Shown one piece after another: positions 18,078 to 23,215 of a DNA stretch of 64,000 nt. The notes beneath the pieces were generated by a model. That model was not told the origin of the DNA. It did not search any database and saw nothing but the letters and a program-made list of their open reading frames with translations. This stretch comes from Alphaproteobacteria bacterium. GTDB taxonomy: Bacteria > Pseudomonadota > Alphaproteobacteria > Rhodobacterales > Rhodobacteraceae. The translations under genes and the position numbers were made by a program. Position 1 is the stretch's first letter, and each line of letters starts with the position of its first letter. The stretch spans positions 1 to 64,000 of the forward strand of contig JAUHVK010000009.1 of assembly GCA_030425145.1 (NCBI GenBank), given 5' to 3'.

Positions 18078-19277
18078 ATGTCCGACCCAACCGACGCGCC
18101 CACAATTGCCATTTCGATGTACGGATCCCTGTCGCAGATTGCGGAAGAGGACTGGGATGCCTGCGCCTGCCCGGAAGTGGCAGATGGTGGGCGTGCCTAT
18201 GATCCGTTTACCACCCATCGTTGGCTGAAAGCGTTTGAAGGCAGTCGCTCGGTCGGGGCGGGGACTGGCTGGGATCCGCGCTACATGACCGCCGAGATGG
18301 ATGGTCAGGTCATCGCCTGCGCGCCGCTTTATGCGAAAAGCCACAGTCAGGGCGAATACATCTTTGATCACAACTGGGCCCATGCTTGGGAACGCGCGGG
18401 CGGGCGGTATTATCCGAAGCTTCAGATCGCAGTGCCCTTCACACCAGCCACTGGCCGCCGGTTCCTGACCCGCCCGGGTTTCGAGGTCGAAGGGATCAGC
18501 GCCTTGGTACAAGGTGCGGTGCAGGTAGCGTCCGAGAACGAGCTTTCCTCGCTTCACATCACCTTCTGCACCGAGGCCGAAGCGATTGCCGGAGAGCAGA
18601 TCGGGCTGTTGCGCCGACGCACGCAGCAATATCATTGGGAAAATCGGGGATATGCCGATTTCAGCGCGTTTCTGGCCGACCTGAGTTCGCGCAAGCGCAA
18701 GACGATCCGAAAGGAACGCGAGCGGGCGCAGGCGTTCGGTGGCACGATCCACCAGTTCACCGGAGATCAGATCCAGCCGGAACACTGGGATGCGTTCTGG
18801 ACGTTCTATCAGGACACCGGCGCGCGCAAATGGGGGACGCCGTATCTTACCCGAAAGTTCTTTGACATCGCGCAGGAACGGTTGCGCGACGACATCCTTC
18901 TGGTGATGGCCGAACGCGACGGTCGCTGGGTTGCCGGAGCGATGAACGTGATCGGGCGCGAAACGCTCTATGGCCGCTATTGGGGCTGTGTCGAGGACCA
19001 TCCCTGTCTGCATTTCGAACTCTGCTACTATCAGGCGATGGATTACGCGATTGCGCAGGGGATGCGCCGGGTCGAAGCCGGTGCGCAGGGTGAACACAAA
19101 CTGGCGCGCGGATATCTGCCGGTTTACACCCATTCGCTGCACTGGGTGGGCGACCCCGGTTTTTCCGACGCGATTGCACGTTATCTTCGGGCGGAAGCAG
19201 AGGCCGTTGACCAGGACATCGACGTTCTGACCAGCTATGGCCCCTTCCGCAAAGATACCATGGAGGATCACCAATGA
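18078..19277 (+). CDS. GNAT/FemAB-like N-acyltransferase (DUF482, peptidogalycan biosynthesis family)
   Basis: The protein has 399 residues. Family segments are [55 protein letters not shown], and near the C-terminus [21 protein letters not shown] plus [16 protein letters not shown]. The double GNAT fold resembles FemAB aminoacyl or acyl transferases. The true reaction is unknown. It is cytoplasmic. ATG 18078 has AAGGAA upstream. It overlaps phhB by 4 bp. Confidence 0.9.
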
Positions 19278-19564
19278 CCGAGAAACTTTCTGACACGGCG
19301 CGCAAGACTGTTCTTGGCCCGCTGCTCGACGCAGGTTGGTCCCTAGTCGATGGTAAAGACGCGATCACCAAGACTTACAAATTCAAAGATTTCACCGAGG
19401 CCTTTGGCTGGATGGCGCGTGCAGCGCTTTGGGCCGAGAAGTGGAACCATCATCCGGAATGGTCAAACGTCTACAACAAGGTCGAGGTCACACTGACGAC
19501 ACATGACGTTGACGGGCTGTCCAGTCTGGACGCCAAATTGGCTCGCAAACTGGATAATCTTTGA
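19274..19564 (+). CDS. phhB: 4a-hydroxytetrahydrobiopterin dehydratase (pterin-4a-carbinolamine dehydratase)
   Basis: The protein has 96 residues, full length for the family. The signature is complete: [18 protein letters not shown], then [17 protein letters not shown], with the active-site histidines. It dehydrates the carbinolamine formed by aromatic amino acid hydroxylases and can act in pterin recycling. No phenylalanine hydroxylase gene is in the window. It is last in the run from ridA, and a terminator follows. Confidence 0.96.
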
Positions 19565-19569
19565 CGTTG

Positions 19570-19612
19570 CAGCGCCGATTTGGCGCTGTGATCTGAAAAT
19601 TCACAGTTTTTT
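19570..19612 (+). terminator. Terminator after phhB
   Basis: Two overlapping hairpins: CAGCGCC-GATTT-GGCGCTG (19570-19588) and CTGTGA...TCACAG (19586-19606), the latter followed by six T. The two are mutually exclusive, and the second is the terminator form. Confidence 0.7.
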
Positions 19613-19674
19613 CCGTGCGCTCTTGGGCTGCGGTTTGGTAGCGTCACACGAGTTGTTTGTGTCCGTGTGGCTTT

Positions 19675-21414
19675 ATGTATCCGTCGACCAATGAACGCCT
19701 GACCCATCTTGTCTACGAAGCATCGCTGGACAATTCGCTTCTGCCCGAGTTGATCCTTGAATTGACCGAGCAGGTGCAGATGGCCGCCGATGGGCGCATG
19801 ATCGAGGCTGACCAACGCCACGATCTGAGCGATCTGATGATGCATTTCCGGCGGGCTATCGAAATCTCGGAAAAGATGGTGCGCTTGCAGGAACGCGAAT
19901 CCGATCTGGAAGCGGTGCTGGGCACGTTTGCCGTAGGGATCGCCTTGGTCGATGACAACGGCGCACCGATTGTTATCAATCGGGCGATGCAGGAAACCGG
20001 ACTGGCGCTAAACGCGCCAATCAAACTGCTGCCCGCGGGAAGTTCGGACAAGACGGCGGGCCAGGCGAAAACCCTTTCGCGCTGGGTGTCAGAGTCGAAC
20101 CGCCTGGAGAGTCCGCAATCGCTTATGACGCGGGACAGCGAGACCAACTATCTGCTGCTGCCGCGCCACGAGGCGATCCGCATGGGGTTCCCGGCCAAGG
20201 CGGCTGCGGTTCTGGTCGCGACCAACCCGAACACGGCGGACGGTCTGCGGGCGTTGGCCAGTGCCCATGATCTGACCCTGCGCGAACAAGCCCTTGTGCG
20301 CGGGTTGATGGAGACCAGCGATCTGCGAAAGGCCAGCGCGGCGATGGGGATCAGCTATGAATCAGGGCGCACCTATCTCAAGCGGGTGTTCGAAAAGACC
20401 GGCATTTCAAGTCAGGTTGACCTGATCAACACCATTGCGAAAAGCCCCCTGTCGATGTTCCGGGAGCGCGAGACTACGGATGCAGAGCGTTTTCAGGTAC
20501 GGCGGCTGCTGCGCTTGCCGGATGGGCGCATGCTCGAATACTTCATCCTCGGACCAGAGGACGGCAGACCTGTCGTGCTATTCGATGCGCTGTCGGGGTC
20601 ATCTATCGACCTGACAGGATTTCCGCGCCAGTACCTTGAGCATCTCGACCACTACGGTGTGCGGCTGATCATGCCTTGTCGGCCGGGCATCTATCGGTCG
20701 GATTTTAAGAAGATGGCCAGTCTGAGGGACTTTGCGCCCGATCTGGAATGTCTCTTCGATGACTTGGGCTATGAACAAGTCTCGCTGATGAGCTTTTCCT
20801 TCGGGTCGGGCATCGCGCTGGCCACGGCACATGAGATTCCAGAGCGGATAAGCAAAGTGCTGCTCTCATCCCCCAGCTATCCCGTTTACAAACATGAAAA
20901 CTGGCGCGAGCTGGACCAGTTCTACCACCTCTCTGCCGTGCTGGCGCAGCGCTGGCCGGCCATGTTCCGTCAACTGATCCCATTCCTTGTGCGGTCCATC
21001 ATCCAGAACGCGCCACGTTACATGGAACGCTATTGCAAAAGGACGCCAAGCGCCCACGACGTCGAATTGCTATCGCATCCGACCATCGGCATCCGGTCAT
21101 CAAAAATGCTCGAAGAACGGACCGCAGGCGGCGTCAACGGCATGGTCGAGGAAAACCTGCTCAATGCGCGCGGATGGGATTTCGACGTGCGGCACATTCT
21201 GGCCGAGGTCGAGATCTACCACGGGGCAGACGATAATGTCGCGCCTGCTCAGGGAGGTGAATTGCTGTCTCAGCATTTGCTTCATGCAAGCTTTACGCTG
21301 TTCGATGACAAGGGCCATTACCAACACATTTCAAGCTGGCCGTGGATGGTGGCCCGCGCAGCAGGACTGGACGTGGCACCTTATAACCGGACCTACTGCA
21401 TCCCAACTATCTGA
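19675..21414 (+). CDS. LuxR-type HTH regulator fused to an alpha/beta hydrolase
   Basis: I chose ATG 19675 (MYPSTNERLTHLVYEA); the track begins six codons earlier. Neither has a clear ribosome site. The protein has 579 residues in three parts. An N-terminal region (about 1-195) has a coiled segment and a PAS-like stretch (GTFAVGIALVDDNGAPIVINRAM). A LuxR-type HTH (about 200-260) contains LTLREQALVRGLMETSDLRK. The alpha/beta hydrolase part (about 275-579) has a nucleophile elbow SFSFGSG, an Asp in HGADDNVAP and a His in KGHYQH. The triad appears intact although the elbow's first Gly is Ser. The family is a regulator with a possible hydrolase or ligand-sensing domain, and its targets are unknown. 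Confidence 0.85.
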   Translation: MYPSTNERLTHLVYEASLDNSLLPELILELTEQVQMAADGRMIEADQRHDLSDLMMHFRRAIEISEKMVRLQERESDLEAVLGTFAVGIALVDDNGAPIVINRAMQETGLALNAPIKLLPAGSSDKTAGQAKTLSRWVSESNRLESPQSLMTRDSETNYLLLPRHEAIRMGFPAKAAAVLVATNPNTADGLRALASAHDLTLREQALVRGLMETSDLRKASAAMGISYESGRTYLKRVFEKTGISSQVDLINTIAKSPLSMFRERETTDAERFQVRRLLRLPDGRMLEYFILGPEDGRPVVLFDALSGSSIDLTGFPRQYLEHLDHYGVRLIMPCRPGIYRSDFKKMASLRDFAPDLECLFDDLGYEQVSLMSFSFGSGIALATAHEIPERISKVLLSSPSYPVYKHENWRELDQFYHLSAVLAQRWPAMFRQLIPFLVRSIIQNAPRYMERYCKRTPSAHDVELLSHPTIGIRSSKMLEERTAGGVNGMVEENLLNARGWDFDVRHILAEVEIYHGADDNVAPAQGGELLSQHLLHASFTLFDDKGHYQHISSWPWMVARAAGLDVAPYNRTYCIPTI

Positions 21415-21534: not shown

Positions 21535-22191
21535 ATGCCAAATATTTTAACCAAGGTCGCCGCCTATGAGCGCTTGGCGCGAGAGCGTCAAATGGTATCG
21601 CTTATTGATCGGGACATCATAGCTTTAGGCGGCGACTTTATCCCTCTGAGATCCGATTGGGTCTCGCTTTACTATGACACTGCACACAAGATCGTATCCG
21701 ACGATGGCGGCCAATATGCCTACCGGGCGATCACCACATGAGGCGAATTGCTGTGGCTCGTGTTTTCAACCGGCAAGTCGCGCGGTTATCACTCCGAGGC
21801 GGCCTGCCCGTTTGACGCTTTTGAAGAAGCCAGGGCCGCGCTGGACCAACGCCGCGCGATCAAGTCACGCTGGAATGACGTCACATCCCTTGCCCGCAAC
21901 CTGCGGCAAGGGCGAATGCGGTTCGATATCCTGATTGAGGATTCCCTGACTTCGCCCCTGTGCTCAATGGGAACGCGGCATTTCCTACGCACGGTTGGGC
22001 TTGCCGGGATTACCCGGATCTCCGGGTTCAAGCTGGCGTGGCTGATGCTGCTGGAGCCGCAACTTGGCTTCGTGATCCATCAGGCAGCATTGCGCGAAGG
22101 TGTCTTGAACGCCGATGGCGCCGCGCAAACTGTCTCCGGCAAGACCAAACCCGTGAGAGTTCAGCCGAACCCGGCAGTACAGGTCAGTTGA
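21535..22191 (+). pseudogene. Conserved-hypothetical ORF interrupted by one in-frame TGA
   Basis: Two track ORFs (21535-21741 and 21748-22191) are in the same frame and separated only by TGA at 21739-21741. Read through, they give one protein of about 218 residues: MPNILTKVAAYERLARERQ...YRAITT, then the stop, then GELLWLVFSTGKSRGYHSEA and a longer C-terminal part ending in NPAVQVS. The second half has no ATG/GTG start near the stop. The simplest reading is a nonsense mutation, for example CGA or TGG to TGA. Recoding is possible, but I see no selenocysteine element. I recognise no named domain. An imperfect direct repeat (TGCCAAAT..TTTTAA, about 30 bp apart) spans the start codon. Confidence 0.65.
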
Positions 22192-22267: not shown

Positions 22268-23215
22268 ATGCTGGGTTATATCGTCAAACGACTGATCTCA
22301 CTTGCCATAAGCCTGATTGTGGCCTCGGTGGTTATTTTCGTCGTGGTCGAGATCGCACCTGGCGATCCAGCGAGCTTCATGCTGGGTATCAACGCGCAGC
22401 CGGATACGGTCGCCGCCTTGCGCACCGAGCTGGGACTGGATCAATCAAAGTTCGACCGCTACCTGAGCTGGGTCGGTGGGATGCTGACCGGAGATTTCGG
22501 CACGTCCTACACTTATCGGACGCCGGTGGCGCAGATGATCGTGGACCGGATGTGGGTGTCCCTTCCGCTTGCGCTTTTTGCCCTGACACTGTCGACCTTG
22601 ATTGCCTTTCCAGCGGGTATCTTCGCCGCTGCGCGCCGGGGTGGTCCGGGCGATCTGGCGGTAACGGGCGCGACCCAGTTGGGCGTCGCCATCCCGAATT
22701 TCTGGTTCGCAATGATGCTCGTGTTGATCTTTGCGATCCAGTTACGCTGGTTCAGCGCCGGTGGCTTTCCCGGTTGGGAGAAAGGTTTTTGGGGTGGGAT
22801 GAAGGCCCTGACCTTGCCCGCGATCGCCTTAGCACTGCCGCAGGCGGCGATCCTGACCCGCGTGATGCGGTCTTCGCTGCTCGACATTCTGGGCGAGGAC
22901 TTCATGCGCACTGCCCGCGCCAAGGGGCTGTCGGCGCGTCAGGCGCTCTGGCGGCACGGGCTGCGTAACGCTTTGATCCCCGTGCTGACGATCATCGGCC
23001 TGCAATTCGCCTTTCTGCTGGCCGGTGCAATCATCATCGAGCAGGTGTTCTTTCTGCCGGGCCTTGGGCGGCTGATCTTTCAGGCCATCACCCAGCGCGA
23101 CCTGATTGTGGTTGAGTCGGTGGTGATGCTCCTTGTCTTCGCTGTGATCATGGTGAACTTCCTCGTTGATCTGGCCTATGCGGCCGTCGATCCGCGCCTG
23201 AGGACACGGGTATGA
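22268..23215 (+). CDS. ABC transporter permease, peptide/nickel type (DppB-like)
   Basis: The protein has 315 residues and six membrane segments. It has the DppB start (MLGYIVKRLISLAISLIVAS) and the EAA loop region (FMRTARAKGLSARQALWRHGLRNALIPV). Family proteins form the first half of a peptide, nickel or glutathione importer channel. It is first in a tight operon, its stop overlapping the next start by 4 bp. No substrate-binding gene precedes it. The ORF upstream is the TGA-interrupted one. Confidence 0.95.
   Translation: MLGYIVKRLISLAISLIVASVVIFVVVEIAPGDPASFMLGINAQPDTVAALRTELGLDQSKFDRYLSWVGGMLTGDFGTSYTYRTPVAQMIVDRMWVSLPLALFALTLSTLIAFPAGIFAAARRGGPGDLAVTGATQLGVAIPNFWFAMMLVLIFAIQLRWFSAGGFPGWEKGFWGGMKALTLPAIALALPQAAILTRVMRSSLLDILGEDFMRTARAKGLSARQALWRHGLRNALIPVLTIIGLQFAFLLAGAIIIEQVFFLPGLGRLIFQAITQRDLIVVESVVMLLVFAVIMVNFLVDLAYAAVDPRLRTRV

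Follow-up and report, generated by a model that had tools for sequence, protein, structure and literature searches.

What does an alpha/beta hydrolase domain do when it is joined to a LuxR-type transcription regulator? This question is raised by a gene at 19675..21414 (+ strand) of the window, by which we mean the whole 64,000-nucleotide stretch of DNA analyzed here. From an ATG start the gene encodes a marine bacterial protein of 579 aa with the domain order PAS, LuxR-type helix-turn-helix (HTH), alpha/beta hydrolase; an in-frame TTG is found at 19657, before the ATG at 19675. An initial annotation made from the sequence had described a LuxR-HTH protein with a hydrolase fused to it, had seen in this a reversal of the usual LuxR layout, and had proposed that the enzyme domain degrades or senses a signal ester or lactone. 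It had overlooked the PAS domain.

Domain architecture of the window protein

We modeled the window protein as a monomer with AlphaFold2, using 86 sequences of the family (mean pLDDT 88, pTM 0.84). The model contains N-terminal helices, a PAS-like domain, an HTH bundle at residues 187-260 and a complete alpha/beta hydrolase at 276-565. The N-terminal helical region (residues 5-73; 19687..19893, + strand; model helices 5-18, 20-38 and 49-73) is 54-72% identical to that of relatives from other genera. The PAS-like domain that follows it (residues about 76-184; 19900..20226, + strand) is recognized by its order of strands and helices in the models of both the window protein and a homolog, L010, and a few relatives give PAS, PAS_4 or PAS_8 matches. 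It is the least conserved domain, with an entropy of 3.0 bits among 135 homologs compared with 2.15 for the HTH, and an identity between genera of 35-40% compared with 53-59% for the hydrolase.

The LuxR/GerE-type HTH (residues 196-262; 20260..20460, + strand) is assigned from Pfam GerE, near-invariant residues and the model helices. The window protein's own GerE match, at residues 200-251, is sub-threshold (12.5 bits, against a cut-off of 23.5). A relative of the same layout that is 52% identical scores 31.6 bits in the same place, the relatives L041, L043 and L097 score above the cut-off, and at E<0.001 GerE recognizes 38 of 55 family members. The model places helices at 187-198, 202-214, 217-223, 228-242 and 247-260, mostly with pLDDT above 90, and residues L200, E204, R232 and K241 are near-invariant among the 135 homologs. 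Because relatives score above the cut-off and the model shows the helices, we regard the predicted HTH as real despite its own sub-threshold score, and the same two observations rule out a chance HTH. The presence of a LuxR-HTH and a full alpha/beta hydrolase in one polypeptide is thereby confirmed by Pfam, by the GerE matches of relatives and by the model.

We then asked if the layout is indeed reversed. A family profile aligns over residues ~10-260 with L019, a standalone PAS-LuxR regulator of 379 aa (probability 99, E 9e-18). Standalone alphaproteobacterial PAS-LuxR proteins such as L019 share the PAS domain and HTH with the window protein, but they end at the HTH, which in L019 forms the C-terminal end of the protein, and L019 has no hydrolase. 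Since the N-terminal ~260 residues match a standalone regulator of this kind, the idea of a reversed LuxR layout is untenable: the PAS-HTH half stands in normal order. The mid-chain position of the HTH and the C-terminal position of the hydrolase were thus described correctly, while the reversal was not, and the alignment identifies the window protein as an ordinary PAS-LuxR regulator with a hydrolase appended behind its HTH. A quorum-sensing LuxR protein is ruled out because the acyl-homoserine-lactone-binding Pfam family Autoind_bind has no match in the window protein or in family members; the N-terminal half is PAS-like. PADLOC gave no defence-system match for the window protein.

The hydrolase domain and its predicted active site

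The hydrolase domain (residues 276-565; 20500..21369, + strand) is identified by Pfam, Foldseek and phmmer. Pfam Abhydrolase_1 matches residues 299-552 above its cut-off (E 4e-11), the top Foldseek match in the PDB is the hydrolase 9wlv from Microlunatus sagamiharensis (TM-score 0.85 on the target, E 5e-16), and phmmer aligns the window protein with 9wlv at 2e-18, bringing Ser375, Asp520 and His548 onto the Ser, Asp and His motifs of that enzyme. The predicted nucleophile, Ser375 (SFSFGSG; 20797..20799, + strand), sits in a nucleophile elbow directly after strand 369-374 and aligns with GWSGGG of 9wlv. The predicted acid, Asp520 (GADDNVAP; 21232..21234, + strand), comes just after strand 511-517, and the predicted base, His548 (KGHYQH; 21316..21318, + strand), just after strand 538-543. 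Judged from strand and elbow positions and from the alignment, the predicted triad is canonically placed; the three motifs had been picked out by the initial annotation, and the structure model does not displace them. In fold and triad positions 9wlv and related esterases and depolymerases match the window protein, but they are single-domain proteins that lack PAS and HTH domains.

A different picture emerges at the oxyanion site. The alignment places Asp304 (FDALSG; 20584..20586, + strand) where an HG oxyanion motif usually has His, so that the window protein has Asp-Ala in place of His-Gly and no HG-type motif. Family-wide, His is the commonest residue at the aligned site. The motif FDA(L/M)[SA]G occurs in 16 of the 17 sequences that keep the triad among the 135 surveyed below, and its combination with the triad is invariant in the clade of the window protein. 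This suggests that the clade has an unusual active site, for which hydrolysis should therefore not be assumed.

Catalytic-site states across the family

To survey the triad we used 135 distinct full-length family sequences. Ser-Asp-His is kept in 17 of these, another 8 have Asp at the nucleophile site together with a His, and the remaining 110 are degenerate. All 17 triad-keepers hold all three residues down to about 23-30% identity to the window protein, and retention at such low identity is, on the evidence of these alignments, more than chance. The residue aligned with Ser375 is Gly in 52 sequences, Met in 16 and Leu in 13, and the site is free to vary, its entropy rank being 152 of 290. 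His548 is replaced by Gln in 81/135 homologs, and Asp520 is kept as Asp in 122/135.

The degenerate sites are themselves ordered. Among 44 sequences with Gly and Gln at the Ser and His sites, Gly375 and Gln548 are both 100% invariant, with conservation ranks of 7 and 12 out of 279; this group was chosen by those two letters, yet it covers most of one large clade. Another group of 26 sequences, with Met or Leu at the Ser site, likewise pairs these residues with Gln at the His site. Because Gly375 and Gln548 are invariant in 44 sequences, we read the predicted dead site as a non-catalytic pocket under selection, rather than as a product of decay. Misalignment was rejected as a source of the degenerate triads, as a Ser and a His are possible within 5-6 residues of the sites in only 4 of the 110 sequences. 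GxSxG is found anywhere in the hydrolase domain of 12 of the 110, in several cases misplaced. The degenerate homolog L010 models as a full hydrolase (pLDDT 89) and has the same top PDB match, 9wlv.

These observations bear on two alternative roles for the domain. First, it could be a ligand-free structural or dimerization module in which the pocket residues serve fold stability. The freedom of the catalytic residues to change and the retention of the fold in degenerate members would both fit, but the invariance of Gln548 and Gly375 in 44 sequences, and of Ser and His in the other clade, is site-specific and not what a generic fold constraint would produce, and we hold such a module to be very improbable. 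Second, the hydrolase could be an effector enzyme, for example for signal or toxin breakdown, that takes no part in sensing, with the HTH merely autoregulating its expression. The enzyme-like matches of the domain are to 3-oxoadipate enol-lactonase, esterases and dehalogenases, and the window clade keeps the triad; however, that clade has Asp-Ala in place of the usual HG motif, and the family is mostly non-catalytic, yet its two domains stay joined. We therefore consider an effector enzyme quite unlikely.

Two smaller sets of sequences have other states. Asp at the nucleophile position with the His retained (L042, L095, L104, L112, L152, L162, L164 and L165) recalls haloalkane dehalogenase or epoxide hydrolase catalysis, and these eight proteins are possibly Asp-nucleophile enzymes. 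The protein WP_011536845.1 of Ruegeria sp. TM1040 is a variant of the Asp-nucleophile type. In L044, L100, L114 and L118 the GxSxG is perfect, but the catalytic His is changed to Glu or Asp.

Phylogeny of the triad

In a tree of the 135 sequences, the triad-keepers lie in one region with a few losses among them (L040, L115/L117 and L147). The 14-row clade that includes the window protein is uniform for the triad, and L040, L115 and L147, which have no triad, are its close sisters. We also generated an enlarged tree of 151 rows, in which the added loci come mostly from outside the taxonomic family of the window. It contains a strongly supported split, with all 22 triad-keepers in one part and 0 in the other, and requires at least 5 changes of triad state. 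The direction of change is likely loss of catalysis, as read from a quick, unrooted tree with long branches. The window protein belongs to the minority subfamily that retains the predicted triad.

Distribution and annotation of the family

Close orthologs of 82-93% identity belong to the same genus, which named records identify as Marivita; a protein of the window type is present in Marivita cryptomonadis CL-SK44. A Litoreibacter MAG encodes an ortholog of 67% identity, and a Maritalea myrionectae plasmid carries a copy that is 30% identical. Far from being a one-off, the domain order recurs as full-length copies in no fewer than 91 of the 397 genomes drawn from the taxonomic family of the window, almost all of different genera (the 91 come from a manual count of the table). 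In a class-wide draw of 385 genomes, few matches span PAS, HTH and hydrolase. A phylum-wide draw revealed the same architecture beyond the class, notably in one small-genome family (f188) and in genome G1125.

NCBI is inconsistent in labeling the members, using "alpha/beta hydrolase" for some and "LuxR C-terminal-related transcriptional regulator" for others, and neither NCBIfam nor Pfam has a model that covers the entire PAS-HTH-hydrolase architecture. In searches of open-access papers, some of which were narrow searches, we found no characterized homolog and no description of the fusion. The PAS-HTH-hydrolase family is widespread and apparently unnamed. Another combination occurs in the same genus, where L028 (1090-2490) encodes a protein of 466 aa in which, by eye, an alpha/beta hydrolase appears to come after an N-terminal winged-helix DNA-binding domain.

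A proposed ligand-sensing role for the hydrolase domain

We lean towards a reading in which these proteins are one-component regulators and the hydrolase-fold domain works mainly in ligand sensing, with catalysis optional. The window protein would be a cytoplasmic transcription regulator in which a PAS-LuxR core is joined to a C-terminal ligand sensor. A small molecule would enter the hydrolase pocket, where in the window subfamily Ser375-Asp520-His548 may give slow or covalent turnover, and the bound state would shift the arrangement of hydrolase, PAS and HTH in a dimer, altering DNA binding. The larger sister subfamily would have its pocket fixed as non-catalytic (Gly, Met or Leu for Ser, Gln for His), and because the pocket is fixed in that form the job shared by the family would be recognition, not catalysis. 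Ligand binding, allostery, dimerization, DNA binding and the direction of control are what we infer for this regulator, as is the dispensability of catalysis family-wide; in the window clade, its conserved residues indicate that catalysis is probably used.

Several lines of evidence support a sensor. Key HTH residues hardly vary, whereas the catalytic Ser is free to change; 110/135 sequences have no triad, and the Gly/Gln pocket is invariant and the degenerate fold intact. Triad-keepers group together, and the large subfamily has none. The domain order is repeated in at least 91/397 family genomes and in other Pseudomonadota, and a standalone PAS-LuxR regulator can be aligned with the first 260 residues. 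There is also a precedent in RsbQ, a hydrolase that signals via a PAS domain (PMC3183031). Against a pure sensor, the invariance of the triad in 17/17 members of the window subfamily suggests that catalysis matters there, and against the hydrolase as the sensor, the PAS domain could be the actual one. Of the two activities in the initially proposed sense-or-degrade switch, sensing is therefore the better supported; signal degradation fails as a family-wide function because 110/135 homologs lack the triad, and nothing in the analysis points to a lactone or an ester in particular. If the hydrolase is the sensor, then Roseobacter-type marine bacteria hold a widespread class of regulators in which enzyme and pseudo-enzyme forms of one pocket occur within a single family, and the step from enzyme to receptor could be tested via paralogs that differ at the catalytic site.

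The alpha/beta hydrolase fold serves as a small-molecule receptor in the plant hormone receptors KAI2/D14 (DAD2) and GID1. Catalysis is kept in KAI2/D14 and lost in GID1, and all of these receptors act by recruiting partner proteins and have no DNA-binding domain. We liken the window family to them by its use of the fold, not by sequence kinship. A more specific version of the sensor hypothesis, plausible but tentative, is that these LuxR-HTH regulators use the hydrolase as a non-catalytic (Gly/Gln) receptor, with the window clade as a catalytic enzyme-receptor version resembling KAI2/D14. If true, bacteria would have a counterpart of plant hormone reception in which a single family includes both enzyme and pseudo-enzyme states.

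The other system that, by analogy, appears nearest to the window regulator is RsbQ-RsbP of the Bacillus subtilis general stress response, in which a hydrolase signals through a PAS domain and the catalytic triad of RsbQ is required (PMC3183031). RsbP-PAS domains are defined as a class with nine class residues, and the outputs listed for RsbQ-PAS systems are PPM phosphatase, histidine kinase and diguanylate cyclase, a list without an HTH (PMC3183031). Like RsbQ-RsbP, the window protein couples an alpha/beta hydrolase to a PAS domain that controls an output domain; unlike that system, in which the hydrolase is a separate protein, it has hydrolase, PAS and HTH in one chain, and most members of its family lack the triad that RsbQ requires. 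The likeness raises the alternative that the window protein is a fused RsbQ-RsbP, with a true enzyme and, in the same chain, a PAS domain that senses the enzyme's product or its removal of substrate. The intact triad, invariant in 17/17 sequences of the window's clade, the PAS-like fold in the models of both the window protein and L010, and the dependence of RsbQ on its triad in acting via the RsbP PAS domain (PMC3183031) would agree with this. However, such a mechanism is inapplicable to the 110 degenerate members and to the sisters L040, L115 and L147, and no part of the protein is less conserved than the PAS domain, so we think it rather unlikely.

Genomic context and an upstream repeat

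The regulator gene is flanked by housekeeping genes, a FemAB-like gene (18078-19277) and a pterin-4a-carbinolamine dehydratase gene (19274-19564), and genes that by sequence encode a peptide-type ABC transporter begin at 22268. No separate hydrolase gene was seen adjoining the regulator in the window, and no neighbor gene common to the whole regulator family was found. Directly downstream lies a linked gene of ~200 aa with no Pfam family (21535..22191, + strand). In the window it has an in-frame TGA at 21739-21741, where intact orthologs have an Arg codon. Its ortholog follows the regulator, with an intact frame, in the examined loci of the same genus and also in the Litoreibacter MAG; there the remaining neighbors differ, and this gene is the only one that stays linked. 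A homolog in L185 is located about 4.4 kb upstream of the regulator homolog; overall the linked gene is rare (5/101 family genomes).

An inverted repeat, CTGTGATCTGAAAATTCACAG (CTGTGA-N9-TCACAG), is found at 19586-19606, about 69 bases before the ATG, with an expectation of 0.01 per window. Its right half, TTCACAGTTTTTTC, with a T-run after it, is all that is kept in most loci of the same genus. We do not claim the repeat as an operator because other loci of the same genus do not keep it whole.

Five Gly/Gln members (L192, L193, L194, L195 and L203) share a chromosomal region with ORFs that by eye resemble recN and lpxC, which indicates a core copy inherited vertically and only that. L184 (5888-6199) and L186 (5910-6272), which represent two genera, each encode a small hydrophobic protein of 103-120 aa with no Pfam family directly downstream of the triad-keeping homolog.
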